From an uncultured Bacteroidota bacterium (GTDB lineage: Bacteria > Bacteroidota > Bacteroidia > Bacteroidales > WCHB1-69): a stretch of DNA of 64,000 bases. The stretch is from NCBI GenBank assembly GCA_902786595.1, contig CADADB010000006.1, forward strand, positions 1 through 64,000, given 5' to 3'. This document shows positions 35,589 through 51,500 of the stretch, piece by piece. How positions within the stretch are numbered: the first letter of the stretch is position 1; every line of letters begins with the position of its first letter. The position numbers were made by a program, and so were the translations under genes. Under the pieces are notes generated by a model. That model was not told the origin of the DNA. It was given only the letters and a program-made list of their open reading frames with translations, and did not search any database.

Positions 35589-35639
35589 TTTCGTAAATCT
35601 TTTACTTGAAAAAAATTATTCTTGTATCGAAAAAATATA

Positions 35640-35647
35640 TATCTTTG
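35640..35647 (+). promoter_or_regulatory. -7 promoter box TATCTTTG for the restriction-modification island
   Basis: TATATATCTTTGC, 35 bases before the first hsdS-type gene. It is the clearest promoter in the island. Confidence 0.7.
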
Positions 35648-35682
35648 CAGTCTGAAAAAATTACGGTAATAAGATTACTAAA

Positions 35683-36231
35683 ATGATTCGACTGAAAGAT
35701 ATAGCGGAAATACGATCAGGAGTTTATCTCAACAGCCCCCCGGGAGATGAGGTAGCCTATATGCAAATGAAGGATTTGCTGATGGATTCCCCGGAAAAAA
35801 TTGCCTCTTTTGTGGAATATAATCCGAAAATGGAGAAGTATTTACTGCGAAAGGGGGATTTACTGTTTGCTGGGAAAGGCACCACTTACCTTTGCACACT
35901 TTTCAATCTTGACATCAAAGCGGTGGCTTCCACTACATTATATGTCATACGGGTTCAAAACGACAAGGTATTACCGGAATATCTCTGTTGGTATCTGAAC
36001 CGCCCCAATATGGTGAGCAGAATAAGAGCTTCGCAAGTCGGCAGCTCCACACCGTTGATTCTCAAATCCACCTTGGAGGAGCTTGAAATCCCCATACCGG
36101 ATAAAGCCACCCAACGGAAAGTGATGGAAATATCCAGACTTCAGGAACGGGAAACCTATTTGATAAATACTCTTGCAGAGAAACGCGCAAGCATCGTTAA
36201 TCAATTATTAATCAATGAAATAAATAAGTAA
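35683..36231 (+). CDS. Half-size type I specificity (HsdS-like) subunit with one recognition domain
   Basis: The 182-residue protein is a single target-recognition domain (LKDIAEIRSGVY, YLLRKGDLLFAGKGTT, PEYLCWYLNRPNMVSRI, SSTPLILKSTLEELEIPIPD) followed by one conserved helix (QRKVMEISRLQERETYLINTLAEKRASIVNQLL). Canonical HsdS has two such units in about 400 residues. Half subunits can dimerise to give palindromic recognition or exchange with the full subunit. It precedes hsdM by one base and shares its transcript. Confidence 0.75.
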   Translation: MIRLKDIAEIRSGVYLNSPPGDEVAYMQMKDLLMDSPEKIASFVEYNPKMEKYLLRKGDLLFAGKGTTYLCTLFNLDIKAVASTTLYVIRVQNDKVLPEYLCWYLNRPNMVSRIRASQVGSSTPLILKSTLEELEIPIPDKATQRKVMEISRLQERETYLINTLAEKRASIVNQLLINEINK

Positions 36232-36232
36232 T

Positions 36233-37762
36233 ATGGAGAATAAGAAAGTAACCCAAGAAGACATTAACCGCACCGTTTGGAAAGCGTGCGACACCTTTCG
36301 CGGCGTCATTGACCCGAGCCAATACAAGGACTACATTCTCACGATGCTGTTTCTGAAATACGTGAGCGATGTCTATAAATCGAAGCTGAACGATTATCTG
36401 GACAAATACGAGGGCGACAAGGAACGCGCCGAGCGTGCCATGCGCCACGAGCGGTTTGTGGTCCCCGAAAAGAGCTCGTTTGACTTCCTCTATGAGCACC
36501 GCAACGCCTCCAACATCGGCGAGTTGATTGACGAGGCACTGGCCGACCTCGAAGACGCTAACCGCGAGAAGATGAGCAGCGAAGACGGCAGCAGCATCTT
36601 CCGTAACATCAGTTTCAATAGCGCCAACTTAGGCGAGACGAAAGAGAAAAATGCTCGTCTGCGAAATCTGTTACAGGATTTCAAGGGTGTGGAGCTGGAC
36701 GAGTCGCATTTAGAGAACAACGACATCATCGGCGATGCATATATGTATTTGGTGTCCACCTTTGCAGGAGAAGCGGGCAAGAAGGCCGGGGACTTCTTCA
36801 CTCCCGCCGAAGTCTCCACACTGCTCGCAAAACTGACCAAGAGCAACCCAGGTGCCCGTATTTGTGACGTCACCTGTGGCTCTGGCTCTTTGCTGATTAA
36901 GGCAGGAAAGGAAGTTGGTAACAACAACTTCTCCCTTTACGGTCAGGAGGTGAACGGCAGCACGTGGGCATTAGCGATGATGAACATGTTCCTGCACGGT
37001 TTCGACAACGCTGTCATCCGCTGGGGCGACACCTTGCGCAACCCCAAGCTGAAAACCAACGACAAACTGATGAAGTTCGACACGGTGGTGGCCAATCCGC
37101 CGTTCTCGCTCGACAAATGGGGCGCGGAGGAGGCCGCCGCCGACCCGTACAACCGTTTCTGGCGTGGCATTCCGCCCAAGAGCAAGGGCGACTGGGCCTT
37201 CATCAGCCACATGCTGGAGGTGGCCGACGACAATGGCGGCAAGGTGGGTGTGATTATCCCTCACGGCGTGCTGTTCCGTGGCGGCAGCGAAGGCAAGATC
37301 CGTCAATATATCCTTGAGAACGAGCATATTTTAGAGGCGGTTATCGGTTTGCCCGCCAATCTCTTCTACGGTACGGGCATTCCGGCGGCCATCGCCATTT
37401 TCCGCAAGGGACGCGGCTCGGAGAACGTGCTGTTCATCGATGCCAGCCGCGAATATGAGAACGGCAAGAATCAGAACAAGTTGCGTCCGCAGGACATCGA
37501 GCACATCGTGGGTGTCTATCGCAAGTTCGCCAACGGTGAGTTGCAGCCTGGCGTGGTGGAGGACAAATACGCCTACGTGGCCACCCCCTCCGAAATCCGC
37601 GAGAACGACTTCAACCTCAACATTCCGCGCTACGTGGACACCTACGAGGAGGAAGCCGAAATCGACATCCCCGCCGTGCAAAAAGAGATTGAACAGTTGG
37701 AGACGGAACTGGCCGAAGTGCAGGGGAAGATGAAGGAGTATTTGAAGGAGTTGGGGTACTAA
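36233..37762 (+). CDS. hsdM: Type I restriction-modification methyltransferase subunit HsdM
   Basis: The 509-residue protein has the N-terminal helical HsdM domain (VWKACDTFRGVIDPSQYKDYILTMLFLKYVSD) and an adenine-N6 methylase core: GDFFTPAEVSTLLAKL, SAM-binding motif I ICDVTCGSGSLLIKAG (about residue 210-225) and catalytic motif IV NPPFSLDKWG (about 290). It ends with a coiled-coil helix that contacts HsdS. Length and motifs are intact, so it should be active. Confidence 0.93.
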   Translation: MENKKVTQEDINRTVWKACDTFRGVIDPSQYKDYILTMLFLKYVSDVYKSKLNDYLDKYEGDKERAERAMRHERFVVPEKSSFDFLYEHRNASNIGELIDEALADLEDANREKMSSEDGSSIFRNISFNSANLGETKEKNARLRNLLQDFKGVELDESHLENNDIIGDAYMYLVSTFAGEAGKKAGDFFTPAEVSTLLAKLTKSNPGARICDVTCGSGSLLIKAGKEVGNNNFSLYGQEVNGSTWALAMMNMFLHGFDNAVIRWGDTLRNPKLKTNDKLMKFDTVVANPPFSLDKWGAEEAAADPYNRFWRGIPPKSKGDWAFISHMLEVADDNGGKVGVIIPHGVLFRGGSEGKIRQYILENEHILEAVIGLPANLFYGTGIPAAIAIFRKGRGSENVLFIDASREYENGKNQNKLRPQDIEHIVGVYRKFANGELQPGVVEDKYAYVATPSEIRENDFNLNIPRYVDTYEEEAEIDIPAVQKEIEQLETELAEVQGKMKEYLKELGY

Positions 37763-37765
37763 ACG

Positions 37766-37793
37766 ATCATATCGTTGACGTCAACGATATGAT
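37766..37793. promoter_or_regulatory. Perfect 28-bp palindrome between hsdM and the AlbA_2 gene
   Basis: ATCATATCGTTGAC is followed directly by its reverse complement GTCAACGATATGAT. It begins 4 bases after the hsdM stop and has no T run, so it looks more like an operator or a protein-binding site than a terminator. The following 125 bases are AT-rich with no recognised promoter box. Confidence 0.55.
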
Positions 37794-37919
37794 AAATACA
37801 AATAAATATGTGATATTCAATGCATTATATATGATTTTGCAAAAAATACATTCATTAATACAATAAGCAAAATACAATATAATAACCTGTAAACTAACAA
37901 TATAAGTGATGACAATAGT

Positions 37920-39365
37920 ATGAATGACGAGAGCCAAAACATAGAATACAAGCGCAGTTGGAGCGACGAATACCTGAAATGGGTTTGCGGATTCGCCAAT
38001 GCCCAAGGTGGGAGAATCTTCATTGGCATTGACGATGACAAATCGGTTTATGGGTTGACCGATTCGCACCGGCAGATGGAGGACATTCCGAACAAAATTG
38101 TTGCTTTTTTAGGTATTGTGGTGGATGTGAATCTGCATCAGAGGAATGGCAAAGAATACTTGGAAATCATTGTGAATCCGAGCAACGTGCCCATTTCGTA
38201 CAAAGGTATTTTCTACTATCGCTCGGGGGCGACCAAGCAGGAACTGAAAGGGGCTGCACTCCAGCAGTTTGTCTTGAAGAAGATGGGGCGCTCGTGGGAC
38301 GAGATAGTTTGCGAAGGGGCCAGAATGGAACACATTGACGACGAAGCGGTCGCCTATTTCGTGCGCAAGGGCATAAAAGCGGGAAGATTGCCAGAGAATG
38401 CAGCGGACGACTCCACGGAAACCATCTTGCGCAACCTTGACCTTATAGACGATGAAGGAGGTCTGCGCAATGCCGCCATCCTGCTGTTCGGCAAGCGGCC
38501 GTCGAAGTTTTTTGCTTGCGTGGAATTCAAGATCGGGCGGTTCAAGTCCGAATCCGACCTGCGCAATCAGGATATGATTACGGGCAACCTCATTCAAATG
38601 GCCGACAAGGTGATGGAGGTATTAGACAACAAGTATTTGATTCGCCCCATCCATTACGAGGGTTTGCAGCGCATCGAGCCGCTGGAAATTCCCGAAGATG
38701 CCTTGCGTGAAATCATCTTCAATGCCATCATACACAAAGAATACCCTGGCTACTCAACGCAGATGAGGGTATATGACGACCGGATATGGCTATGGAATTC
38801 GGGCGGGCTTCCCGACGGCATCACCTTTGAGCAGTTTATGGGCGAGCACAGTTCGTGTCCGCGCAATCGGCTTATTGCCAGAGCTTTCTATTTGGCAGGT
38901 TTCATCGAGTCGTGGGGACGCGGCATTGGCAAAATCAGAGACGAGTTTGTGGCCAACGGCTTAGAAGCCCCCGTTTACAAGGAGGAGATGGGCGGAATGT
39001 CGGTGTATATCACCCGAAGGAAAGGATTGTTTGGAGATGATAATACTGAAAATGACCCTGTAACTGACGGTGTAAAAGTTGTTGATAATGAAAGTATTAC
39101 AATAGATAATGACCCTGTAAATGATCCTGCAAATGACCCTGTAAAAATTACAGGCTCTACTTTCCTTGTTCTTAGAGCTATCGTCGATAATCCTAACTTG
39201 ACTTACGAGGAGATACAGGTAATCATTAACCGCTCAAGAGCCACGGTTAAGCGTGCTATAAAAATACTACGTATCAATAAATACATTGTCCGTGAAGGTT
39301 CCGACAAATCGGGACACTGGTATGTAACTGAAAAAGGACAGAACTATCTTCAAACACATAAATAA
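37920..39365 (+). CDS. AlbA_2/Schlafen-type ATP-binding protein with C-terminal winged helix
   Basis: The 481-residue protein has an N-terminal AlbA_2 domain (NIEYKRSWSDEYLKWVCGFANAQGGRIFIGID), a GHKL-like C-terminal ATPase part of the HATPase_c_4 type (ALREIIFNAIIHKEYPGYSTQMRVYDDRIWLWNSGGLP; RAFYLAGFIESWGRGIGKI), a linker with NDPV/NDPA tetrapeptide repeats of 12 bp, and a winged-helix tail (YEEIQVIINRSRATVKRAIKIL). Such proteins are frequent in restriction islands; their role is unsettled (regulator or defence effector). Confidence 0.82.
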   Translation: MNDESQNIEYKRSWSDEYLKWVCGFANAQGGRIFIGIDDDKSVYGLTDSHRQMEDIPNKIVAFLGIVVDVNLHQRNGKEYLEIIVNPSNVPISYKGIFYYRSGATKQELKGAALQQFVLKKMGRSWDEIVCEGARMEHIDDEAVAYFVRKGIKAGRLPENAADDSTETILRNLDLIDDEGGLRNAAILLFGKRPSKFFACVEFKIGRFKSESDLRNQDMITGNLIQMADKVMEVLDNKYLIRPIHYEGLQRIEPLEIPEDALREIIFNAIIHKEYPGYSTQMRVYDDRIWLWNSGGLPDGITFEQFMGEHSSCPRNRLIARAFYLAGFIESWGRGIGKIRDEFVANGLEAPVYKEEMGGMSVYITRRKGLFGDDNTENDPVTDGVKVVDNESITIDNDPVNDPANDPVKITGSTFLVLRAIVDNPNLTYEEIQVIINRSRATVKRAIKILRINKYIVREGSDKSGHWYVTEKGQNYLQTHK

Positions 39366-39378
39366 AAACAACTTCAAC

Positions 39379-39663
39379 ATGAAACATATAAAAGACAATT
39401 ACAATTTTAGCATATCTTTACGATGCATTGTCTGCGGTCGTGACGATTGCTTCGAATCCAATGAAGATAAGTCATACATCAAATGCACGAACTGCGGAAA
39501 AGAATACTTTGGCGGTCGGGAGGAACTCATTGAATACAACAATGAACAAATACAAGAATCCATTGACCAGAAGAAAAAAGAAATAACATCTGATGTGAAA
39601 AAGGAAATTCACGATATGATTAAAAAGGCTTTTGCTGGAAACAAAAACATTAAAATCAAATAA
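39379..39663 (+). CDS. Small zinc-ribbon protein in the restriction island
   Basis: The 94-residue protein has four cysteines in two pairs, CIVCGRDDC (residues about 16-24) and CTNCGKEYF (about 36-44), forming a probable zinc ribbon, then a charged helix (EQIQESIDQKKKEITSDVKKEI) that could form a coiled coil. It resembles small zinc-binding proteins (ECs_2282-like) found beside restriction genes, on short similarity only. It lies 13 bases after the AlbA_2 gene and 1 base before the next gene, hence the same unit. Confidence 0.65.
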   Translation: MKHIKDNYNFSISLRCIVCGRDDCFESNEDKSYIKCTNCGKEYFGGREELIEYNNEQIQESIDQKKKEITSDVKKEIHDMIKKAFAGNKNIKIK

Positions 39664-39664
39664 T

Positions 39665-40102
39665 ATGGAAATGGCATCAATAATTATTTCAATCATAGCT
39701 TTATTGGGTTCTTTGGCGACGTACATAGTTCACGACCATAAAATCAAGGAACAAGAGAAGAAGATCAACGAATACCAATTAGCAAAGTTCAAAGAAGAGG
39801 AAGAAGAAAACAAAAAAGCTTTGATCAGTGGCAATATCATAAAAAAAGAAAGAAGTCAACGTGTTTTGAAAATCTACAATAAAGGTAAAGCCACCGCTAC
39901 GAACATCAACATACAAGGCCTTGAAATTCAGGAGTTAGACTTGCAGGATAACATTTTGCCCTATGAGTTACTTAACCCTCAAGATTATGCAGAGATAAAA
40001 TTTTTAATTATCATGAATGCCCCGCCAACTATTAAACTCACTTATACTTGGGACGATGCTTATCAAACTAATAACTCTTACACACAAATTCTATCATTAT
40101 GA
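39665..40102 (+). CDS. Membrane-anchored coiled-coil protein, translationally coupled to hsdS
   Basis: The 145-residue protein starts at ATG 39665 with a membrane helix (MEMASIIISIIALLGSLATYIV), then a charged coiled coil (KIKEQEKKINEYQLAKFKEEEEENKK) and a C-terminal domain of about 80 residues predicted to be beta strands (RVLKIYNKGKATATNINIQGLE; IMNAPPTIKLTYTWDD). No family is recognised. Its stop overlaps the hsdS ATG by 4 bases. A membrane anchor sitting directly ahead of a specificity subunit is unusual. Confidence 0.65.
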   Translation: MEMASIIISIIALLGSLATYIVHDHKIKEQEKKINEYQLAKFKEEEEENKKALISGNIIKKERSQRVLKIYNKGKATATNINIQGLEIQELDLQDNILPYELLNPQDYAEIKFLIIMNAPPTIKLTYTWDDAYQTNNSYTQILSL

Positions 40103-41340
40103 TCAAACAAACAACCCATATCCCCGCCGGCTACAAGCCCTCGCCCCTCGGCATCATTCCCGAAGATTGGGAAGTGAAGAGGTTGGGAGAAATCGCTGAA
40201 ATTGGTTCAGGAGGAACACCTTCTAAAAGCCACAGCGAATATTGGAATGGTAATATACCCTGGGTAACTACATCTCTATTGAATAATCCATATATTGAGA
40301 CTGCAGAAGAATATATTACGGAAGAAGGTCTCCATAATTCTTCTGCCAAGATGCTGAATGAAGGCGTTTTATTAATGGCTATGTATGGACAGGGACAAAC
40401 AAGAGGCAAAGTTTCTAAACTATTAATCAGAGCTTCAACCAATCAAGCTTGTGCCTACATTGATGTTCATACCGGTTTGGTGGATTATATTCATCAGAAT
40501 CTTATAGCAAACTATGAAAGCATTAGAAACGAAAGCAATGACGGAAATCAAAAAAATCTAAGTCTCGGAATTATAAGCAATATTAGAATTAGTTTCCCTC
40601 CTCTTCCCGAACAGCGACGAATCGTGGATTTGTTGGAGCTTTGGGACACCGCCATCGCCAAGCAGACCGCCCTGATAGAGAAGCTCACCTTGCGCAAGCG
40701 CGGCCTCATGCAGCAGCTGCTCACGGGGAAGAAACGGCTGGAAGGGTTTAGTGGGGAGTGGAAAAGAACACCAATCAAAGATTTTGCAAAAGAAGTTAGC
40801 GTTCGGAATTCAAATCGTGAAGACCACATTGTCCTATCTTGCACAAAGTACGATGGTCTTGTTCCATCTCTTGAATATTTTGGAAAGCAAATATATTCTG
40901 ACGATTTAAGCAGTTACAAAAAAATCCCTCAAGGGCATTTTGCCTATGCAACAAACCACATTGAGGAAGGTTCCATTGGTTATCAGTCGAAATACGAACA
41001 AGGTCTAATCAGCCCTATGTACACCGTGTTTATTACGGATAGAAAAAAGGTGGACGACGCTTTTCTATTTGCTGTGTTTAAATCACATCACCTTATCCAC
41101 TTGTATAAATCAATGATGGAAGGCTCAATAAACAGGCGCGGCGGATTAAGATGGGATTCTTTCTCCACTATCAAAATCAATTTGCCACCATTGGATGAGC
41201 AAACCGCCATTGCATCAGTTTTAATCAATGCCGACAAAGAAATCGAGATACAAAAACAAAAACTAGCGGCCATACAGGAACAGAAGAAGGGGTTGATGCA
41301 GGTGCTGCTGACGGGGAAGAGGAGGATAAAAATAAATTAA
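40099..41340 (+). CDS. hsdS: Type I restriction specificity subunit HsdS (full length)
   Basis: The 413-residue protein has two target-recognition domains, each followed by a conserved helix: first PPLPEQRRIVDLLELWDTAIAKQ with the tail GLMQQLLTGKKRL, second PPLDEQTAIASVLINADKEIEIQ with the tail GLMQVLLTGKRR. The DNA encoding the two tails is near-identical, a possible site for domain shuffling. The first recognition domain is clearly more AT-rich than the central helix, indicating mosaic origin. It starts with a 4-base overlap with the preceding gene. Confidence 0.92.
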   Translation: MIKQTTHIPAGYKPSPLGIIPEDWEVKRLGEIAEIGSGGTPSKSHSEYWNGNIPWVTTSLLNNPYIETAEEYITEEGLHNSSAKMLNEGVLLMAMYGQGQTRGKVSKLLIRASTNQACAYIDVHTGLVDYIHQNLIANYESIRNESNDGNQKNLSLGIISNIRISFPPLPEQRRIVDLLELWDTAIAKQTALIEKLTLRKRGLMQQLLTGKKRLEGFSGEWKRTPIKDFAKEVSVRNSNREDHIVLSCTKYDGLVPSLEYFGKQIYSDDLSSYKKIPQGHFAYATNHIEEGSIGYQSKYEQGLISPMYTVFITDRKKVDDAFLFAVFKSHHLIHLYKSMMEGSINRRGGLRWDSFSTIKINLPPLDEQTAIASVLINADKEIEIQKQKLAAIQEQKKGLMQVLLTGKRRIKIN

Positions 41341-41356
41341 AAACAGAAGAAATGTA

Positions 41357-42700
41357 ATGAAAGAAGATATCAACAAATTGTCACATGCAGAGTTTCTTTC
41401 GTTTTTATATAGCGAAAGAGATCGTGAAATCTCAAATAAATACATGCCTGGATGGAGTAATTGGGTTCTGATTGGAGCTACGGTTTCATGTCTAACGATA
41501 ACATATAAATTACTTAAATCCAATGCTTTTAAGGTTCAAGAGACCGTCTTCATCCTACTATTAAGTGGTTTTCTTGCTGCGGCATTATCTTATTATCCAA
41601 CTTTCAAATGGATACTTAGACTCATATCAAGGAAACGTTCCATTGATTATAGCAAGTTATGCACTTTAAAAGAGGCTGCCCCTACAACTATGATTGTTTT
41701 CGGAACAATTATTTCAATAGTAATGGCTTTAGTGTTATATAAATATGAATTGCCCTCATCACTCGTGTTTTTGTGGTTGATATTATTTATCATTAAAATC
41801 ATAACAATTGTTGATTTAATAGTTCATCGCAATAATCTTGTTATAGCAATAGAAAAAATAGATGGGTTCAGAAATTCTACTATTGAAGCAGTGTTTTCCA
41901 TAGTAAATTTATTAATAGCGGGCATAATATTTGATTTGTCTTTTAGACACATAAAAACATTAAACTTTACATCTTTCCCTACTATCAGTCTGGAATTTGA
42001 AATTGCCATTTGCATAGTATTTCTTTTGATACTGCTGTTTTTGATGATTTATTTTAACGAATCGAAAAATAACAAAGCAGAAAAGAATATCGATTTTATC
42101 ATCGACAGATATAATTATGACAATTTGTCACAAGAAGATGCATATACAGAATTGCTAATCCTTCGCCATGGAAAAGATTCTATTCAAGCATTGGAATATG
42201 AGCAAAAAAAGCTTTCGGATTCCATTTCTGTTCTAGAAAAAAGACAAAGTGATATTGAGAAAATTGATTATTCGAAAAAATCAACAGAAGATGTTGATAG
42301 AGCATTAGATATTATTGACACTATAAGTAAAGATTGTGAACGATATACTATAGTGATTAAATCTCTTTTAAATAAAATGAGAGAAATACTAGACTTACGA
42401 ATACCAATCAACGAATCTGAGTATAAAACTCTTTTTGATAAAATAGAATCTTCTCGTGAATTGGTCGAATCTTTGACGGAAAAATGTAGTCATTCAATTA
42501 CAATAATTAAAACAATTGTTGAAAATAAAAAGAAATTGATATGTAGGTATCGAGGAGGTCTTTGTGAGAATTTAGAATGTCAAGATAGAAACAAAAGAAG
42601 AACAATAATGCATAGTGTTTTGTTATTTCTTAGAAAAATAAAACTAAAACCACGCATTATATCAAATAGAGTTAGAATGAAGTGTAATTTACGCAAATAA
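41357..42700 (+). CDS. Multi-pass membrane protein with long C-terminal coiled coil, unknown
   Basis: The 447-residue protein is AT-rich and matches no family I recognise. It has about six membrane helices: around residues 33-53, 62-82, 107-127, 131-153, 176-194 and 212-232. A long acidic/basic heptad region follows (residues about 235-400, including SIQALEYEQKKLSDSISVLEKRQSDIEKI), with a basic Cys-containing tail (CRYRGGLCENLECQ). It begins 16 bases after hsdS and ends just before a remnant of hsdR. The architecture recalls membrane-bound defence effectors, but that is inference from layout. Confidence 0.6.
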   Translation: MKEDINKLSHAEFLSFLYSERDREISNKYMPGWSNWVLIGATVSCLTITYKLLKSNAFKVQETVFILLLSGFLAAALSYYPTFKWILRLISRKRSIDYSKLCTLKEAAPTTMIVFGTIISIVMALVLYKYELPSSLVFLWLILFIIKIITIVDLIVHRNNLVIAIEKIDGFRNSTIEAVFSIVNLLIAGIIFDLSFRHIKTLNFTSFPTISLEFEIAICIVFLLILLFLMIYFNESKNNKAEKNIDFIIDRYNYDNLSQEDAYTELLILRHGKDSIQALEYEQKKLSDSISVLEKRQSDIEKIDYSKKSTEDVDRALDIIDTISKDCERYTIVIKSLLNKMREILDLRIPINESEYKTLFDKIESSRELVESLTEKCSHSITIIKTIVENKKKLICRYRGGLCENLECQDRNKRRTIMHSVLLFLRKIKLKPRIISNRVRMKCNLRK

Positions 42701-42710
42701 CCATTGGATT

Positions 42711-42782
42711 ATGTCTTATATCTCCTTCAAAGAAAACGACATGAGCCAACGCTCCGCTTTGGAATTGATGTGAAGTTGGGTT
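42711..42782 (+). pseudogene. Frameshifted remnant of an hsdR 5' end
   Basis: From ATG 42711 the frame reads MSYISFKENDMSQRSALELM and stops at TGA; skipping one base it continues KLGS. The intact hsdR at 43349 starts MILISFKENDISQKPALELLQKLGY. The two share a long identical DNA stretch across ISFKEND. After about 70 bases the similarity is lost, so this is the left-over start of an earlier or duplicated hsdR. Confidence 0.75.
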
Positions 42783-42818
42783 CTTTAATACGATTGATAA
42801 CCAAAAAATATATACCAA

Positions 42819-42983
42819 ATGATATCAAACCCCGAACCGCAAGACCTACTGCAAACCACCGAGACCTATCGCGTGGAGCGTACCTATTCCACCAGTGTCA
42901 CTCAAGATGTCACTCAAGATGACACCCAAGATGACACCCAAGATGATACTCAAGGTATTAACCATCAAACACTATCATTATGA
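42819..42983 (+). CDS. 54-residue ORF with VTQD tetrapeptide repeats
   Basis: From ATG 42819 the frame reads MISNPEPQDLLQTTETYRVERTYSTS, then about five 12-bp units encoding VTQD/DTQD, ending GINHQTLSL. Its stop overlaps the dinD start by 4 bases. Tetrapeptide linkers of this sort (VTxx repeats) are common ahead of the winged helix of AlbA_2 and Fic proteins, so it is probably a fragment of one rather than a working gene. Confidence 0.4.
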   Translation: MISNPEPQDLLQTTETYRVERTYSTSVTQDVTQDDTQDDTQDDTQGINHQTLSL

Positions 42984-43240
42984 AATCCGAAGAAATCCAA
43001 ACCTTATTCGAACAGTTCGAGAAGGCTGCTGTAACAGTCGAGAATGTTGAATGCTGGAGCGCGCGGGAACTCCAACCGCTGCTGGGTTACGCCAAGTGGG
43101 AAAACTTTTCAAAAGTAATTGAAAAGGCAAAAGAATCCTGCCGGCAAGTGGGACATCCTGTTGCCGACCATTTTCCTGACGTCAGGAAAACGATACCCAT
43201 GCCGAAAGGCCGTAGGGGCAGACCTGCGTGTCTGCCCTAG
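42980..43240 (+). pseudogene. DinD-like (damage-inducible protein D) gene truncated by repeats
   Basis: The first 76 codons encode a DinD N-terminus: KSEEIQTLFEQFEKA, VECWSARELQPLLGYAKWENFSKVIEKAKESC and VADHFPDVRKTIPMPKG. Full DinD is about 270-300 residues and next has the GS-rich and RYACYLIAQN region, which is missing. From about 43208 the frame enters GC-rich hairpin repeats, which give RRGRPACLP and a stop. dinD is often found within type I restriction loci. Confidence 0.72.
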
Positions 43241-43320
43241 TAAGGATGGACCTGCGTGGCTGCCCCCGATAGGTAAAAGGGCGGACACATAGGTCCGCCC
43301 CGACGGTCCGCCCCGACGAA
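43211..43320. repeat. Tandem GC-rich hairpin repeats (GGGCAGAC/GGGCGGAC arms)
   Basis: GGGCAGAC (43216-43223) pairs with GTCTGCCC (43230-43237), and GGGCGGAC (43279-43286) pairs with GTCCGCCC (43293-43300). Two partial copies (GGACCTGCGTGGCTGCCCC and GGTCCGCCCCGACG) lie between and after. The GC content contrasts sharply with the AT-rich neighbours. It looks like a cluster of REP-type elements. Confidence 0.75.
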
Positions 43321-43348
43321 ACGATATAAATAAAAAATCACCCAAAAT

Positions 43349-46300
43349 ATGATCCTTATCTCCTTCAAAGAAAACGACATCAGCCAAAAACCGGCATTGG
43401 AACTGCTGCAAAAGCTGGGTTACCAATACCTCTCGCCGGAGGAAGCATTGGAGCTGCGCGGCGGGAAGACCTCCAACGTGCTGCTGGAAGACATTTTGCG
43501 GCAACAGTTGCGCAATCTGAACTCCATCCGCATCGGCAGCCACAGCGAGGCGCGCTTCTCGGAACAGAACATCGAAAACGGCGTCGCCGCTATGCGCAAC
43601 GTGCCCATGGAAGGCGGCTACCTCAACGGCAACGAGGCAGTGTATAACATGCTCACCCTCGGCAAAGCCTTCGAGCAAAGCATCGACGGCGACAAGAAGA
43701 GCTACACAATGCGCTATATCGACTGGCAGCAACCCGAAAACAACGTGTTTCACGTCACGGAGGAGTTTGCCGTCACCCGCGCGGGCTCCAACGACACCTA
43801 CCGTCCCGACATCGTGCTCTTTGTCAACGGCATCCCCTTGGTGGTCATCGAGTGCAAACGTCCCGATGTCAAAGGGGCGGAAGAGCAGGCTATCTCGCAG
43901 CATCTGCGCAATCAAAAAGAAGACGGCATCCGCAGTCTGTATGTCTATAGCGCCCTGCTGTTAGCTATCGGCAACAGTTTCGGCAGCTACGCCACCACTG
44001 GATCGGCAGCGCAGTTTTGGTGCAAATGGCACGAGCGGTTTATCAACAAGACGGCGGAACAGGACTATCTCCAGCGGCTTAGCGAGATGGCGGGCGATAG
44101 GGAAGTCACCCTGCAGGACGAGTATCTCTACAACCTCTGCCGTCCAGAACGGCTGTTGGAGCTGATGTACCACTTCACGATTTACGATGCCGGTATCAAG
44201 AAGTTGGCCCGATACCAGCAGTATTTCACCGTAAACGAGACGGTGAATCGGGTGAAGACCATAGAGGCGGGACATCGCAACGGCGGCGTGGTCTGGCATA
44301 CGCAAGGCAGCGGCAAATCGCTGACGATGGTGATGTTAGCGCAGAAGATTGCGCAAGAGCCGAGTATTTCCAACTCCCGCATCGTATTGGTTACCGACCG
44401 CACCGACCTCGACAGTCAAATCACAAAGACTTTCCGAAAGTGCGGCAAGGAGGTGGAGAACGCCACTACGGGCAGTCGCTTGGTGGAGTTGTTGGAGAGC
44501 GACACGGATGCTGTCATCACCACGGTTATCAACAAGTTTGCCACGGCCATCAAGAAAATCAAACGCCCGCTCGACAATCCCAATATCTTCATCCTGATTG
44601 ACGAAGCGCACCGCAGCCAATATAAGGAGATGGCCATCCAGATGAACCGGGTGTTGCCCAATGCCTGCAAGATCGCCTTCACGGGCACCCCGCTGATGAA
44701 GAAAGACAAGAATACCGCCCGCACGTTCGGAGGCATCATCAAACCCGTCTATACCGTAAAGCAAGCCGTTGAGGACAAAGCCGTTGTGCCTCTGCTCTAC
44801 GAAGGCCGTTTTTCGCCACAAAGAGTAAACGAAGAATCTATCGACAATTTCTTCAACATGGTGTGTGAAGATCTCACTCCATACCAAGCCACCGATTTGA
44901 AAAAGAAACATGCACGTGCCGACAGCCTCAACCAAGCAGAACAGCGAATTTTCTCCATCGCTATTGATATTTCGAAACATTATGCAGACAATTGGCAGGG
45001 AACTGGCTTCAAAGCCATGCTTGTCACACGTAAGAAGAAGATTGCCATTCTTTATAAAAAGTATCTTGACGAGATTGGGAAGCTCGCCTCCGAAGTGTTG
45101 ATCACTGCGCCTGATGATCGCGAAGGGGAGGAAACCGCATACGGTGGTACGGCCCAGGAGGTTAAGGATTTTTGGAAGCGCATGATGGACGAGCATGGAA
45201 CGCCGCAGAAATATCAAGAAAACCTGATTTCTCGGTTTAAAAACCAAGAGTTACCAGAATTGATGATTGTGGTGGACAAATTGCTCACCGGCTTTGACGA
45301 GCCGAAGGTGGCAGTGATGTATCTCGACCGAAACCTAAAGGGTCATACGTTGTTGCAGGCCGTTGCACGCGTGAACCGCACCTGCGAAGGAAAGGATTTC
45401 GGCTACATCATTGACTATTACGGCGTATTACGAGAATTAGACGATGCCTTAAGCATCTACTCGGAATATGACGAAGACGACCGCAAAGTGTTCCGTGACA
45501 CTTTAGTGCCTGTCAGTGACAAAATCGCTGAACTTCCGCAGCGCCATTCCGACCTTTGGGAGCTGTTCAGGATGATTCCCAACAAACGCGATTTGGAGGC
45601 ATACGCTCAATCGTTGCGCATGGAGGATCGTCGCCACGAGTTCTACGACCGTCTGACGGCATTTTCATCGGTGCTGCAACTCGCCCTATCTACCAAGGAA
45701 TTCTTTGAAACCACTGATGAAAGGGCCATTCATCGTTACAAAGACGATCTGAACATGTTTGCCAAGCTGCGCACCGCTGTCCAACTGCGCTATTCCGACA
45801 CTATCGACTACAAGAAATACGAGGCTCGTATCGAGAAACTCATCAACCACCATGTGGAAAGCGATGCCGTGAAGGTCATCACCAATTTGGTCAACATCTT
45901 CGACAAAGATAATTTCCAGAAAGAAGTGGACAGTGTGGTCGGTACCGCCGCCAAGGCCGATACCATCGCCACCCGTACTGCAAAATACATTCAGGAGAAT
46001 ATGGATTCCGACCCCGCTTTCTTCAAGAAATTCTCGCAGCTTATCAAAGAGACTATAGAACTTTACGAGCAGGGGCGCTTAACGGACAATGAGTATTTGG
46101 AAAAGATGATGCAGTACAAAGAGGATGTGCTGAACCACACCGACAGCGAATTGCCGCCCGAGTTGGAACACAACAACGCGGCGAAGGCCTATTTCGGCAT
46201 CGCTTTGGAGAACTACAAGCGGCTCTTCCCCGGCATGCCCGTCCGCGAAATGGCCTTGGCCACGGCCAACGCTTTCGATGACATCATTCGCCAAACGGTG

Positions 46301-46486
46301 ATTGTAGAGGGTTCCGTGCTGGTGGACTGGCAGTCGAAAAACGACATCATCGGCAAAATGAAAATCCGTCTCGAAGACGAGCTAATCGACAATGTCAAGC
46401 GCAAATACGGAGTGAGTTTCCCGTTTGATGATATGGATATCATCATCGACGGATGTGTGGAGGTGGCCAAAATCTGGATCCGATGA
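43349..46486 (+). CDS. hsdR: Type I restriction endonuclease/translocase subunit HsdR
   Basis: The 1045-residue motor has the N-terminal PD-(D/E)xK nuclease (Asp154 in RPDIVLF, Glu168 and Lys170 in VIECKRPD), the SF2 helicase part with Walker A GSGKS (residues 320-324, HTQGSGKSLTM), DEAH at 418-421 (LIDEAHRSQ), TGTPLM, and a second RecA lobe ending LLTGFDEPKV and QAVARVNR, then a helical C-terminus binding HsdM. All motifs are intact, so restriction activity is expected. Confidence 0.94.
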   Translation: MILISFKENDISQKPALELLQKLGYQYLSPEEALELRGGKTSNVLLEDILRQQLRNLNSIRIGSHSEARFSEQNIENGVAAMRNVPMEGGYLNGNEAVYNMLTLGKAFEQSIDGDKKSYTMRYIDWQQPENNVFHVTEEFAVTRAGSNDTYRPDIVLFVNGIPLVVIECKRPDVKGAEEQAISQHLRNQKEDGIRSLYVYSALLLAIGNSFGSYATTGSAAQFWCKWHERFINKTAEQDYLQRLSEMAGDREVTLQDEYLYNLCRPERLLELMYHFTIYDAGIKKLARYQQYFTVNETVNRVKTIEAGHRNGGVVWHTQGSGKSLTMVMLAQKIAQEPSISNSRIVLVTDRTDLDSQITKTFRKCGKEVENATTGSRLVELLESDTDAVITTVINKFATAIKKIKRPLDNPNIFILIDEAHRSQYKEMAIQMNRVLPNACKIAFTGTPLMKKDKNTARTFGGIIKPVYTVKQAVEDKAVVPLLYEGRFSPQRVNEESIDNFFNMVCEDLTPYQATDLKKKHARADSLNQAEQRIFSIAIDISKHYADNWQGTGFKAMLVTRKKKIAILYKKYLDEIGKLASEVLITAPDDREGEETAYGGTAQEVKDFWKRMMDEHGTPQKYQENLISRFKNQELPELMIVVDKLLTGFDEPKVAVMYLDRNLKGHTLLQAVARVNRTCEGKDFGYIIDYYGVLRELDDALSIYSEYDEDDRKVFRDTLVPVSDKIAELPQRHSDLWELFRMIPNKRDLEAYAQSLRMEDRRHEFYDRLTAFSSVLQLALSTKEFFETTDERAIHRYKDDLNMFAKLRTAVQLRYSDTIDYKKYEARIEKLINHHVESDAVKVITNLVNIFDKDNFQKEVDSVVGTAAKADTIATRTAKYIQENMDSDPAFFKKFSQLIKETIELYEQGRLTDNEYLEKMMQYKEDVLNHTDSELPPELEHNNAAKAYFGIALENYKRLFPGMPVREMALATANAFDDIIRQTVIVEGSVLVDWQSKNDIIGKMKIRLEDELIDNVKRKYGVSFPFDDMDIIIDGCVEVAKIWIR

Positions 46487-47181
46487 CAACAGACAGCATT
46501 CTCTATGGCTCGACCCACATCGAGTACAGCATTGATTATGTGCCGCGAAAAACGCTCGGCATTCGCGTGGAACCCGACGGCTCGGTTTTCATAAAGGCTC
46601 CGGAAGACGCCACTTTGGAAGACATTCGTGAGAAAGTGCATCGCAAAGCCCCTTGGATTTTGCGGCAACGGCGTTATTTTGAGTCTTTTGGGATTCCCAC
46701 AACAGAGCGGCAGTATATCAGCGGCGAGTCGCATCTCTATTTGGGGCGGCAGTATATGCTTCGAATCAGGGAATCAGATTGCAATGCCGTTCATTATCAA
46801 AACAACATTCTTGAAATTGAATGCCGAAACAAGAAAGAGGCCAAGAAGGTGCTACAGGAATGGTATCTGGAGCGAGCAAAGGTCAAATTCGCCGAATACG
46901 CGAAACCAATTGTCGAACACTTTTCCGTTTATGGCGTAAAACCCGAATCTCTTTCCGTTAAAAAGATGGAAAAACGGTGGGGCTACTGTACAAAGGATAG
47001 CGATATCTATCTGAATCCCAGACTAATTTGTGCGCCACGCGGCTGCATTGAGTATGTCATCACCCACGAACTGTGTCATTTGGTACACCGCAACCACACG
47101 AAGGATTTCTATGCGTTGCTAAGCAAGGAGATGCCCCAGTGGGAGAAGTGGAAGACGAAGTTAGAGCGGATGATGCGGTGA
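46483..47181 (+). CDS. YgjP-like (DUF45/M48-related) metallopeptidase
   Basis: Starting at ATG 46483, overlapping hsdR by 4 bases, the 232-residue protein ends in the zinc motif HELCH (residues 195-199) with a third His at 205 (HRNH), preceded by KRWGYCTKDSDIYLNPRLI, the signature of YgjP/DUF45 peptidases. These often close type I restriction operons and have been suggested to act on HsdR, but this is not established. No signal peptide is present. It is the last gene of the island. Confidence 0.87.
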   Translation: MTTDSILYGSTHIEYSIDYVPRKTLGIRVEPDGSVFIKAPEDATLEDIREKVHRKAPWILRQRRYFESFGIPTTERQYISGESHLYLGRQYMLRIRESDCNAVHYQNNILEIECRNKKEAKKVLQEWYLERAKVKFAEYAKPIVEHFSVYGVKPESLSVKKMEKRWGYCTKDSDIYLNPRLICAPRGCIEYVITHELCHLVHRNHTKDFYALLSKEMPQWEKWKTKLERMMR

Positions 47182-47200: not shown

Positions 47201-48580
47201 CTATTTCGTTCCCCCGCCCAATGCGATATAAAGGGCGATGATGGCGCGGGCGCCGTTGTAGAGGTTCGTGGCTTCGTTGATTTGCGCTCCAAGGAGACCC
47301 TCTTGCGCCGACAAAACCTCCAAATAGCTGGCTTTGCCGTTGTCCATCAATTCGTGCGTGCCCATGTAGGCATCCTGCAAAACCACAATCTGACGCTTGT
47401 AGTACACGTCTTTATCGCGGGCGGCTTGGCAGTCGGCCAACGCCTCGTTCACTTGATTGCCGGCGTTGATGACGGTCTGCACATACTGCTGGGCGATGTC
47501 TTCTTGCGATAACTTGCTGATTTTGAGGTTGGCTCTCAATTTGCCTTGAGCGAAGACGGGCTGCATGAGAGAGAGCACGGCGTTGAGCAACATGGCACCG
47601 GGATTCACCGTCACACTGCCGCCATTGTTGGTCCAGCCGATGATGCCCTGCAATGAAACCTTCGGATAAAACGCGGCACGGGCGGCCTGCGTGTTATAAA
47701 ACGCCTCTTCCAACAGATGATCCGCCATCTGGATGTCGGGACGGTTCTCGAGCAATTGCGCTGGCACACCCGTGCTTAACCGCTGCGGCAACTCGTAGTT
47801 GTTCCAACGATTGCGGTTGATGTGCTGAGGGGTAATGGCAAGTAACTGACAGATAGCGTTTTCCACACTTCGGATGCTGCGTTTTACATCGATAATCTGC
47901 GTCTTGACATTCAGATAGGAGGATTCCATCTGATTGACGGAGGTGGAATATGCCTTGCCGTTCTCCCAAAGAGCCCGCTGCGTCTCCAAAGAGGCGTTCC
48001 ACAAGCTGTCGGTGGAGAGCAGAATTTCCAACTGGCGGTCTAAAAGCTGCAACATGCAATACTGTTGCGCCACGGCGGAGATGAGGTTGGCCTGAACCAC
48101 CTGCTTCCTCGCCTCGGCTTGCGCAAGAACGGCCTTTGCTTTGCGTTTTTGGTTTGTGTTGACCGCGAAAAAGTCCAGATTCCAATCTACCTGCAACGGT
48201 AAATTGTAGGTCCAGTTGGCGGGACTGAAGTCGAAACTTGACACCGAGCCGGATGGACCAAACGTGACGGATGGCAGGTAGCCCAACTTCGTAGCCTTCA
48301 AGGAGGCCTGCGCCTGCTCCACGGCAATACGGGCAGAGTTGAAGTCGGTGTTGCGGGCCAGAACAGAGTCGATGAGCTGTTGCAACAGCGGGTCCGTGAA
48401 GAACTCACGCCATGACAGCTCTGCGATGGACTTGTCGCCCTGCGCAGCCTTCACATCTTCCGTCACCCCAAACGCCTCCGGGGAAATTTCCGATTTCGAG
48501 GTGTATTTGTTATATATGCCGCAGCCTGCGAACGCAAGACATAAAACGCTGACGGCGATGAAAATGGTTACTCTTTTCAT
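47201..48580 (-). CDS. Outer-membrane efflux channel lipoprotein (TolC/OprM family)
   Basis: The 459-residue protein starts with a lipoprotein signal (MKRVTIFIAVSVLCLAFAGC, lipobox FAGC) and has the duplicated coiled-coil barrel repeats of OprM/CusC/NodT channels (NTDFNSARIAVEQAQASLKATKLGYLPSV; RPDIQMADHLLEEAFYNTQAARAAFYPKVSL). It forms the outer-membrane exit duct of the tripartite pump encoded upstream, overlapping the pump gene by 4 bases. Confidence 0.9.
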   Translation of the reverse strand: MKRVTIFIAVSVLCLAFAGCGIYNKYTSKSEISPEAFGVTEDVKAAQGDKSIAELSWREFFTDPLLQQLIDSVLARNTDFNSARIAVEQAQASLKATKLGYLPSVTFGPSGSVSSFDFSPANWTYNLPLQVDWNLDFFAVNTNQKRKAKAVLAQAEARKQVVQANLISAVAQQYCMLQLLDRQLEILLSTDSLWNASLETQRALWENGKAYSTSVNQMESSYLNVKTQIIDVKRSIRSVENAICQLLAITPQHINRNRWNNYELPQRLSTGVPAQLLENRPDIQMADHLLEEAFYNTQAARAAFYPKVSLQGIIGWTNNGGSVTVNPGAMLLNAVLSLMQPVFAQGKLRANLKISKLSQEDIAQQYVQTVINAGNQVNEALADCQAARDKDVYYKRQIVVLQDAYMGTHELMDNGKASYLEVLSAQEGLLGAQINEATNLYNGARAIIALYIALGGGTK

Positions 48581-51500
48581 TGTTCTGACTTGTTTTCGTT
48601 AGCATTCTCTGAAACAACAACTTCGCTGGCATTTTCTGCTACCGGTACTCCGTGAACTTTCTCGTGCAAGTTCTGGAAGACGATGAAGAAGGCGGGGACG
48701 ACGAAGACCAGTGCCAGCGTGCCGACGGCCATACCGGCGGTGACGCCGAGGGCGAGCACGCGGTTACCGTTGGCGCCCGCACCGCCGGCGATGATAAGCG
48801 GAATCATACCCGCAATCATCGTGACGACAGTCATCAAGATAGGACGCAGACGCTCTTCGCAGGCGGCGAAGGCGGCATCGCGGATACTGAGGCCCTGTGC
48901 GCGACGCTCTGAGGCGAATTCCGTGATGAGGATGGCGGTCTTCGCCAACAAACCGATGAGCATGATGACACCTGTCTGCAGGTAGATGTTGTTCTCCATG
49001 CCCGGCAGGTGCAGTCTTGAAACGAGCCACACAACACCAAACGAACCCAACAAACCGAAGGGTACAGAAAGCAACACGGCCCACGGCGTGAACCAGGAGT
49101 TGTAGAGAGAAGCCAGGATAAGGTAGATGAGAATGACGCAGATGACGTAAATGAGGACGGTGGCGTTCGAGCCGGCGGCCTCCTCCACTTCGCGCGACAT
49201 GCCACCGTATTCGTAGCCGTAGCCGGCGGGCATCTCCTCTTTGAACACCTCGGCGATGGCCTCATGGGCATCACCCTCCGAAAATCCGCTGGCGGTCATC
49301 ACACCGCAAGTGATGCTCTGGTACAGGTTGAAATGTTCAACGGATGCTGAACCGACGATTTCTTTCAGTGTGACGAACTCCGAGATGGGAGCCATCTTGC
49401 CGCCACGCACGCGGACGAAGATGTTGTTCAGCGCGGACGGGTCGAGGCGATATTCCGGCGCAGCGTTCGCCATGATGCGATACACCTTGCCGAACTGGTT
49501 GAAGTTGCCCACGTACGAGCCGCCGCAGTAGGCACCGAGCGTCTTGAGCACGGCCGCGGGCGACACACCGGCGCGGTCGCACTGCGCTGCATCGACGCTG
49601 ACATCATACTTCGGGAAACGCTCGGAATAGGTGGACATCGCCGCCATAATCTCCGGTCGCTCGTTCAGCTTGGCGAGGAACTTGGTGGCATCGGCGTTGA
49701 ATTCCGACATCGGGCGGTCCTGCATATCCTGCAGCACCAGGTTCACGCTGCTGTTCGAGCCATATCCTGGCACCTGCGGCATCTGGAAGGGGATGACCTT
49801 GGCGTTCTTGATGTCCTTGCAGTCCATGGCGAAACGACCATAGACGAGCATGATATTGTGGTTCATGCCCGGGCGGTCGTCCCAGTTTTTCAGGCGGATG
49901 ATGAGCGTGGCGTAGCAGCTGCCCGAGCGGCCTGCCATCATACCGTAACCGTTGATCACAGCGTAACTTTCCAGCTCGGGAATTTTCTTCACCCTTTCCT
50001 CCACTTTCTTCACAATCTCCTCCGTCTCATGCAGGGTGCAGCCTTCCGGTGCACGGACCTCGGCGAAGAACACGCCTTGGTCTTCCTGTGGCACGAGACC
50101 TGACGGCAGACCGCGCATGGACAGGATGAGCAGCACGGCGGCACAGGCCAACAGCACGCCCGCAACCCACGGACGTTTGATGAACTTGGCGACACCCGAT
50201 TTGTATTTGTTGAGGATGGCGTTATAACTGACGGTATAGGCTTTTTTGACGTAGTAGTTCAGATTCTTCTTTTCTTGTTCATCCTTCGAGTAACGCATCA
50301 TCAGGCCGCACAAGGCCGGACAGAGTGTCAGAGCCGAAATGCACGACAAACCGACGGCCGATGCCAGCGTGACACCGAACTGCAGGAAGAACGACCCCGA
50401 GGTGCCAGGCATGAAAGCCACGGGGATAAACACGGCCATGAAGACCAGCGTACACGAGATGACCGCTATGGAGACATCGCTCATGGCCTGGCGCGTGGCT
50501 TCTCGGGCGTCCGATATGCCGCCCTCCATCTTCGCCATCACCGCTTCGACCACGACGATGGCGTCATCCACCACCGTTCCGATGGCGAGCACCAAGGCGA
50601 ATAGCGTCAATATGTTCAGGGAGAAACCTGCCACCTTCACGACGGCAAAGGTACCCAGTAGCGACACGATGATCGAAACAGAGGGGATGATTGTCGCTTT
50701 GAAGCTTTGTAGGAAGAAGTAAACCACAAGGATGACGAGGAGGATGGCGATGATGAGTGTTTCCACCACATTATGGATAGCGGCGAAGAGGAAGTCATCC
50801 GAAGTTTCCAATATTTCGAACTCCAGACCGGCGGGCATCGTCGGCTGCAGCTCTTCGTAAAGCTTGTTGATGCGGGCGTTCACTTCCGTGGCGTTGGCGC
50901 CAGGGGCCTGGAACACCATGTAGATGGTGCCGGGCTTGCCGTCGATGTTGGAGGTGAAGTTATAGCTCACAGCGCCGATTTCCACGTCCGCTACGTCGCT
51001 CAGATGCAGCAGGTGTCCGCCGTCGCTCGTGCGCAACACGATGTCGTTGAATTCCTCGACGGTTTTGAGCGTGCCCTTGTATTCCAAAGAGTATTGGTAG
51101 GCGTTCTCGCTCTGCTCGCCCAACGAACCCGTGGCGGCGACGAAGCTCTGTCCGCCGATGGCCGCGAACACGTCGTTCGGTTCCAGCCCATATTGTGCCA
51201 TCACATCAGGTTTCAGCCAAATGCGCAGGGCGTAGGTGTTACCGAGTGCCATCACGTCGCCCACCCCGGTGATACGCATAAGGCGGGGACGCACGTTGAT
51301 GTCAATGTAGTTGGCGATGAAGTCGGCGTCGTATTTGCCGTCAACGCTCTTCAGTGCGCCGATGTGCAGGATGTTGCTCTGCTGTTTCATCACCTGTATG
51401 CCCACCTTCGTGACTTCCGCGGGAAGCAATGCCGTAGCCCTGCTGACGCGGTTCTGCACGTTCACTGCGGCGAGGTCGGGGTCGGTGCCCTGCTCGAAAT

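Follow-up and report, generated by a model that had tools for sequence, protein, structure and literature searches.

Type I restriction-modification (R-M) loci with cargo genes embedded among their hsd genes are already known from Campylobacter, from the RptR island of Escherichia coli and from the guilt-by-embedding PDC candidates. The E. coli RRDM island (RptR-RMS-DarTG-M48) begins with a regulator gene, followed by HsdM-HsdS-(embedded defence genes)-HsdR-metallopeptidase. RptR represses as a homodimer, and the promoter of its own gene contains repeated palindromic sites; the authors regard the gap between hsdS and hsdR in the island of enteropathogenic E. coli as a potential recombination hotspot (PMC12255303). 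The Campylobacter jejuni hsd loci (rlo and mlo; Miller et al. 2005, as cited in PMC5183652 and PMC2610378) carry variable genes on both sides of hsdS, towards hsdR as well as towards hsdM. Half specificity subunits have been engineered: the EcoR124I half-S dimerises and with HsdM reads GAAN7TTC (PMC3320862), enzymes with a half-HsdS are active and their dimers have been likened to transcription factors reading split palindromes (PMC6158711). Here we analyse a type I locus at positions 35683-47181 of a 64,000-nucleotide stretch (the window) of contig CADADB010000006.1, which belongs to the 2.84-Mb draft genome of an uncultured bacterium of the Bacteroidales (WCHB1-69; assembly GCA_902786595.1). 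Its first gene, halfS, encodes half an HsdS. We read the operon, with moderate confidence, as a scaffold for exchangeable defence genes whose autoregulator is most likely halfS.

The locus resembles the RRDM island in its order, with the proposed regulator first and the metallopeptidase last. It differs in having two cargo slots, in its cargo and in its phylum. RptR, an alpha-helical protein of 9 kDa, recognises TAGCTA, whereas halfS is of the Methylase_S type and is accompanied by GTA-N7-TAC sites (PMC12255303). We do not count the locus as an RRDM island, as its first gene is of the Methylase_S type and the matches listed for the ten window proteins include neither DarT nor DarG. The accessible descriptions of the C. 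jejuni hsd loci mention neither a halfS nor paired promoter sites (PMC5183652, PMC2610378). Like halfS, the engineered EcoR124I-NT and M-half-S have one target domain, and the EcoR124I-NT dimer reads a trinucleotide-N7-trinucleotide palindrome (PMC3320862, PMC6158711). These are man-made truncations used as enzymes, whereas halfS is a conserved natural protein linked to its own promoter. A literature search that covered neither bioRxiv nor most subscription journals returned no description of a natural half-HsdS regulator or of a conserved halfS with a paired operator.

All genes of the locus lie on one strand in the order halfS, HsdM, SLFN_AlbA_2 protein, CxxC protein (ZnR), one-helix protein (TM156), HsdS, TM447, HsdR and YgjP. 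A first-pass annotation had described a complete hsdM, hsdS and hsdR set with extra genes, and every gene it named was found in place and on the same strand. The expected motifs are retained, namely NPPF (HsdM), PD-ExK, Walker A and DEAH (HsdR) and HExxH (YgjP). The set comprises HsdM, an HsdS with two target domains and an HsdR with nuclease and motor motifs, as required of type I R-M, and judging by families and motifs the three would form an ordinary type I enzyme. Tight packing, which had been claimed for most junctions, applies to six of the eight; the gap between HsdM and the AlbA_2 gene measures 157 bp and that between TM447 and hsdR 648 bp. For the one-helix gene the likeliest start is the ATG at 39665, giving 145 residues and a 1-base gap rather than an overlap, and YgjP probably starts at 46483.

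To place the locus among its relatives we used an HsdR search, which returned 45 loci (numbered with L), 37 of them close; together with the window 38 close loci were examined. The closest HsdR relatives belong to uncultured, largely rumen, Bacteroidales. The common order is halfS-HsdM-(slot 1)-HsdS-(slot 2)-HsdR-YgjP. YgjP comes immediately after HsdR in all 37 close loci that could be scored, with a called overlap of 4-34 bases (L027, which is cut and has no scorable HsdR, stands outside this count). HalfS lies immediately upstream of HsdM in all 22 close loci with at least 600 bp of upstream sequence, and its open reading frame (ORF) is open in all 22. The half HsdS had been listed among the extra genes; instead it is, alongside YgjP, one of the two constant ones. 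In the 25 close loci that have all of M, S and R neither slot is ever empty: counting ORFs of at least 70 residues on either strand, there are 1-4 in slot 1 and 1-5 in slot 2.

The arrangement extends beyond the close loci. The halfS profile matches 84 of 296 Bacteroidota genomes; 27 genomes including the window's own have a near-full-length match (E at most 6e-22), located in an ORF of 189-273 residues that stands alone, and most of the weaker matches sit in longer ORFs, that is in full HsdS. We requested 20 of the 27 near-full-length places, of which 19 were readable at length. Of these 19 distant Bacteroidota loci, which were picked for halfS, 17 have HsdM immediately after it and 16 retain the whole arrangement as far as YgjP. 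HalfS also precedes HsdM in one locus each from WOR-1, SAR324 and Aeromonadaceae. No stand-alone halfS was found in 20 other type I loci of the family, some of which are cut at contig ends, and in 10 of these 20 YgjP is next or next but one after HsdR. A repressor-peptidase pair of halfS and YgjP (CapH/CapP-like) was considered as well; YgjP matches CapP with an E value of 0.003 and also occurs in loci that have no halfS.

As expected of a half HsdS, halfS combines a single Methylase_S domain with a single conserved helical region. A helix-turn-helix as in type II C proteins was not found, Pfam giving only Methylase_S for halfS. We compared the identities of the four proteins across the 20 loci (190 pairs) in which each of the four genes was present and passed the length limits. 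The domain borders were drawn by hand on the window HsdS and halfS, and eight distant loci were left out here and in the grouping of cargo families. The median identity is 93% for HsdM, 84% for HsdR, 14% and 15% for the first and second target recognition domain of HsdS, and 58% for the halfS domain. The minimum for the halfS domain is 47%, so that no pair falls below 30%, whereas 95% of the pairs do so for each HsdS target domain. For the central region of HsdS 10% of the pairs are below 30%, which may be due to odd HsdS ORFs. The specificity of HsdS is thus replaced freely between loci and the halfS domain is not. The halfS profile matches solved HsdS chains. It also matches stand-alone chains of 198-206 residues in the Protein Data Bank named Esub1 (8vsq, 8vsr; E ~1.5e-7), for which a literature search gave no relevant paper.

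The promoter of halfS, which we assigned at 35622-35647 by the Bacteroidota consensus, lies between two interrupted palindromes (Table 1). A TAnnTTTG box stands 36-48 bp upstream of halfS in all 22 close loci. Within 160 bp upstream of halfS these loci contain 41 copies of GTA-N7-TAC, with at least one in each of the 22, compared to a mean of 1.04 and a maximum of 6 in shuffled sequences and a mean of 0.58 and a maximum of 5 under first-order resampling. Other spacers from 0 to 15 occur 0-3 times each at the same promoters, and elsewhere in the loci and the window the rate of GTA-N7-TAC is 0.022 per 160 bp (74 in 535,518 bp). The seven middle positions vary, and the outer A and T, which are not part of the search pattern, are kept in 37 and 36 of the 41 copies. 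Two exact sites flank the box in 19 of the 22 loci and a single site is present in L015, L031 and L033; the 22 include near relatives (L023/L024, L031/L033, L012/L032), and the number of independent cases is smaller. In the close loci halfS thus shares with R-M controller proteins a place in the operon and conserved repeated sites at its own promoter.

A halfS dimer is expected to recognise a short palindrome whose halves lie some seven bases apart because an engineered half-HsdS dimer does so. HsdS is an unlikely reader of the promoter sites because its target domains differ in 95% of the locus pairs. Since the expected palindrome stands at the promoter of halfS itself and HsdS is an unlikely reader, we take halfS as the autoregulator: a halfS homodimer, alone or with HsdM, would bind the two palindromes on either side of the promoter and would thereby repress transcription of the operon. 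By analogy, halfS would probably do for this operon what RptR does for the E. coli island.

We then asked where else the paired arrangement occurs and searched 103 genomes of the family for pairs of sites at a distance of 45-72 bases. There were 53 matches in 32 genomes, and the sole match in the window's own genome is the halfS promoter. Thirty of the 53 places were examined as loci, together with L195-L199, among which L197 is a further place. A -7 box lies between the sites in eight of the 30 places and halfS comes next in four of these eight, compared to none of the 22 places without the box. The four are the window, G713, G715 and G735; the last three are halfS genes that had not been encountered before, and in two of these genomes hsdR had been identified earlier. 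L197 (G747), a place chosen by eye, also has halfS.

Several observations weigh against parts of this reading. The paired pattern alone is nonspecific: a backward control often equals or exceeds it and gives four matches in the window's own genome. Among the 28 more distant halfS regions two sites are present in seven and one site in two, and the remaining 19, some of which carry repeated palindromes of another kind, have no GTA-N7-TAC, as is also the case for L038; the count of 28 excludes L100 (11 bp upstream), L038 (from the query set) and L120-L138 (which repeat counted places). The search for GTA-N7-TAC also gave no match in L115. A general test for palindrome pairs, applied to 18 close and 27 more distant regions (out of 22 and 28), was weak, with p<0.05 in 10 of 45 regions compared to 10 of 108 controls and p=0.060 for the window region. 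The operon may also not be transcribed as one unit, since other promoters could lie in the gaps of 157 and 648 bp. Regular looping between the sites is likewise unsupported and was rejected: the spacing clusters at 71-75 and 82-84 bp in the close loci (one at 51) and is 37-68 bp in the more distant ones, which gives R 0.76 at 10.5 bp for the close loci, with a broad peak and a misfit of the distant loci. In the palindrome-pair test the minimum attainable p (0.005) was reached by six of the 45 regions, among them those of SAR324 (L039) and Aeromonadaceae (L042). About 150 bp upstream of halfS these two have other paired palindromes (ATCAAA..TTTGA and CATCAT-N5-ATGATG), an indication that operator and halfS change together. 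Upstream of the genes of another halfS group, in L093-L106, we noted by eye mostly two CAGRAA-type elements in place of GTA-N7-TAC.

It is also conceivable, though we consider it unlikely, that halfS serves mainly as a second specificity subunit. A complex of two halfS and two HsdM would then be a methyltransferase whose specificity, GTA-N7-TAC, is constant, and the addition of HsdR would give a symmetric restriction enzyme; the promoter sites would be methylated targets and any control would act through methylation. GTA-N7-TAC indeed has the bipartite form of a type I target, halfS adjoins HsdM in all 22 close loci, and engineered half-HsdS dimers methylate with HsdM and cut with HsdR (PMC3320862, PMC6158711). 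This explanation, however, leaves the two sites at one promoter in 19 of 22 loci unaccounted for, and the constancy of halfS is unlike that of HsdS specificity domains. We looked for restriction at the motif in the form of site avoidance and found none in the window's own genome, where GTA-Nn-TACT occurs 141 times with N7, 102 times with N6 and 85 times with N8, though a protected host need not avoid its sites.

There is a slim chance that an unrelated regulator encoded elsewhere binds the paired sites and that halfS is kept for another reason, to which the 19 distant halfS promoters without the motif would lend themselves. Against this, sites and halfS co-occur in several families, the sites led us to new halfS genes, and halfS and HsdS are the sole products shared by the operons that come from a sequence-recognition family, HsdS having target domains below 30% identity in 95% of the pairs. 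We give next to no credence to halfS as a spare or decaying specificity half retained for target-domain shuffling: a half HsdS beside a full one is also seen in phase-variable loci, but no swap was seen in 190 pairs, the ORF is open in 22 of 22 loci and the 20 largest of 35 direct repeat families include no strong repeat between halfS and HsdS (best 24 nt, 75%).

Autoregulation by halfS may be taken one step further. HalfS with HsdM could act as repressor and sensor in one, such that an anti-restriction DNA mimic of a phage or a drop in free HsdM would release the promoter and switch on the R-M genes together with the cargo at the time of the phage's attack on restriction. We put this forward as a rather doubtful extension because Ocr inhibits the engineered half-S methyltransferase (PMC3320862) and because a phage anti-restriction factor wakes PrrC (PMC2610378).

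The genes in the two slots differ between loci. The 124 cargo ORFs of the close loci were grouped, giving 22 families with at least two members, of which 20 are restricted to one slot (expected: 4.9; none of 5000 shuffles as high). The two families found in both slots are DinD and SLFN_AlbA_2, the latter splitting into slot-specific branches. We scanned 30 representatives of the 150 cargo proteins by Pfam and ten by PADLOC. Slot 2 contains a Pycsar cyclase with PycTM, TIR, TIR-SLOG, AbiTii, DUF3800, an AriA-like ATPase, PD-Lambda-4, PDC-S34 and a protein kinase; slot 1 contains Fic (PDC-S04), SLFN_AlbA_2 and proteins without a family. The cargo of the sibling loci thus includes members of known or candidate defence families, TIR/Thoeris-like proteins and DinD (PDC-S13) among them, and the DinD, Fic and HAD cargo corresponds to the guilt-by-embedding candidates PDC-S13, PDC-S04 and PDC-S34 (Payne et al. 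preprint, cited in PMC12988326). In the window the truncated DinD matches a defence candidate and SLFN_AlbA_2 a known domain family; TM447, TM156 and ZnR match no defence family. In having foreign genes which stand between hsd genes and vary among relatives, the locus agrees with R-M loci of the rlo/mlo, RRDM and PDC kind. The first-pass annotation had regarded one or two accessory genes as ordinary, which does not hold in this family: 17 of the 20 other type I loci carry genes between M or S and R, two of the remaining three have no intervening genes and one is unclear.

Pairwise comparisons demonstrate that slot contents were replaced between loci and that gene fragments were left behind; the replacement itself would have taken place by recombination. 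Between the window and L008 the segment 41295-43209 (TM447 and scar) is 95% identical, compared to 83% for the stretch from hsdR to YgjP. Between the window and L006 positions 41229-42782 match at 94.8%, compared to 86% for that stretch. L007 shares slot 1 at 91%, its HsdS target domains differ and its TM447 is only 27-29% identical. L195, from the same genus, has the slot 1 of the window again and a different HsdS (39%). Relatives of the SLFN_AlbA_2 gene are found in slot 1 of L006 (partial), L007, L018, L028 and L032. According to this picture the two slots, one between HsdM and HsdS and one between HsdS and HsdR, would hold independent cargo swapped by recombination; in the window this would be the Schlafen-AlbA_2 ATPase, the zinc-ribbon/one-helix membrane pair and TM447.

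The two wide gaps carry traces of such exchanges. The 157-bp gap corresponds to only ~3 bp in L007 and its first 45-49 bp match the sequence after HsdM in L006 and L035; it is probably the scar of an earlier occupant of slot 1. The 648-bp gap is filled with fragments: the start of an hsdR, Schlafen pieces, dinD and GC-rich repeats. The first-pass annotation had overlooked this decayed stretch (42,711-43,310) with its pieces of hsdR, of a second Schlafen gene and of dinD. In L006 an intact hsdR directly follows TM447 and starts at the point that matches the relic in the window; the match between the two loci runs into the hsdR relic and hence fits a boundary left by an earlier exchange. The Schlafen relic matches gene starts in L016, L018, L014 and L012, and dinD is longer (277 residues) in L007, L008 and L032. 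The same dinD fragment is present in L004, 98% identical over 86 residues, and the GC-rich repeats are REP-like in kind.

The first-pass annotation had taken the membrane proteins as belonging to the restriction system. A mostly tight unit on one strand and recurrent embedding were borne out; the membership of the membrane proteins was not, as the occupants vary. TM447 and TM156 matched no Pfam, NCBIfam or PADLOC model, and the matches of ZnR were weak (NF047912 below the cut-off; PADLOC PDC-M36A with E 0.0028), so that, unlike the PDC candidates, the first two have no PADLOC model and the third resembles one only weakly. A single-sequence search found TM447 in one of 295 genomes of the class, and a profile search in three of 393 genomes of the order including the window's own, one of them only weakly. 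The clear members (window, L006, L007, L008 and genome G561) are all located between HsdS and HsdR, a placement which is deduced for G561 because two contigs there each carry part of the gene. Among the 37 other close loci, some of them cut short, TM447 occurs in three (L006, L007, L008) and ZnR with TM156 also in three (L007, L009, L035), while L026 has TM156 without ZnR. The pair is also present in L195 (G713), and ZnR adjoins TM156 wherever it was seen. Outside an hsd operon the pair was found in L140 and L141, from two other genomes of the order; in L140 an HsdM-like ORF (29%) lies 7.4 kb away on the opposite strand.

Because slot occupants differ between sibling loci, TM447 and ZnR with TM156 are probably embedded cargo and not parts of the enzyme. 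That they are working parts of the restriction system appears very improbable to us. The short gaps (16, 1 and -4 bases) and the fact that clear TM447 relatives have so far been seen only between HsdS and HsdR would agree with it; on the other hand ZnR and TM156 also occur outside hsd operons and other genes occupy the same slots elsewhere. The absence of the accessory genes from every homologous locus, which had been named as evidence that would overturn the idea, was not observed, yet they are missing from most of those examined. Judged by the genes among which they are found, the two membrane modules most likely act at the membrane as defence effectors in their own right, against which it has to be held that their location is what points to defence, given the missing or weak model matches.

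Structure prediction gave no further assignment. The AlphaFold model of TM447 was unusable (pLDDT 48.6 from 4 sequences). The model of TM156 (pLDDT 69.7 from 5 sequences) shows one long helix and seven strands; its best Foldseek matches are mostly adaptin-ear-like with E 1.9e-3 or worse and none below 1e-3, and we claim no fold. We also looked for a phage or plasmid origin: TM156 was absent from phage records, TM447 from plasmid records and both from the viral contigs searched. TM156 matches the phage family profile phrog_6723 (E 1e-12).

Table 1. Features of the R-M locus and of its upstream region, in window positions.
Feature	Position	Strand	Remarks
Operator-like site 1	35592..35606	none	CGTA-N7-TACT interrupted palindrome
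Bacteroidota-type promoter	35622..35647	+	TTG at 35622; -7 box TATCTTTG at 35640-35647
Operator-like site 2	35665..35679	none	GGTA-N7-TACT, adjoining the halfS start codon upstream
halfS	35683..36231	+	Methylase_S, 41.9 bits; one Methylase_S-type domain and one helical region; 182 aa; proposed autoregulator
HsdM	36233..37762	+	type I adenine methyltransferase subunit
AT-rich gap	37763..37919	none	157 bp, 23.6% GC
SLFN_AlbA_2 + HATPase_c_4 + winged-helix-like protein	37920..39365	+	slot 1 cargo
ZnR	39379..39663	+	slot 1 cargo; CxxC zinc-ribbon-like protein, 94 aa
TM156	39665..40102	+	slot 1 cargo; one-helix membrane protein with C-terminal beta domain, 145 aa
HsdS	40099..41340	+	two target recognition domains (two Methylase_S stretches), replaced between loci
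TM447	41357..42700	+	slot 2 cargo; 447 aa, ~five hydrophobic segments, then helical C-terminal half
hsdR 5'-end relic	42711..42782	+	in-frame stop 42771-42773
Slot-2 Schlafen/AlbA_2 gene relic	42819..42956	+	5' end, then piece resembling the repeat tract
Truncated dinD (PADLOC PDC-S13)	42980..43240	+	first 77-78 residues retained
GC-rich repeats	43212..43310	none	terminating the dinD fragment
HsdR	43349..46486	+	
YgjP-like metallopeptidase	46483..47181	+	HELCH; immediately 3' of HsdR in 37/37 close loci

Some further characteristics of the cargo and of the surroundings were noted. The SLFN_AlbA_2 protein of the window contains an in-frame tandem repeat (39048-39145, NDPV-type) between its ATPase and winged-helix parts, and the slot-2 Schlafen genes have short direct repeats of different sequence near their 3' ends. 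The same window protein matches short-Argonaute-associated profiles of PADLOC (Aga_SIR2), and two slot-2 SLFN_AlbA_2 relatives match short-Argonaute-associated profiles and pAgo; these matches are probably due to the shared domain. Downstream of the R-M locus the other strand carries efflux genes (47201-51780), which we take to be TolC-like and RND-type. The flank of L007 is identical in kind, and hence its R-M locus lies at the same chromosomal site as that of the window.

The frame with its two separate gene pools makes TM447 and ZnR with TM156 specific defence candidates. If halfS controls the operon, this would account for the continued control of an operon that is costly and whose cargo changes, and a restriction-specificity family would also regulate transcription, with predicted sites at many Bacteroidota promoters. 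A specificity subunit turned transcription controller would, if true, be a new class of R-M regulator.

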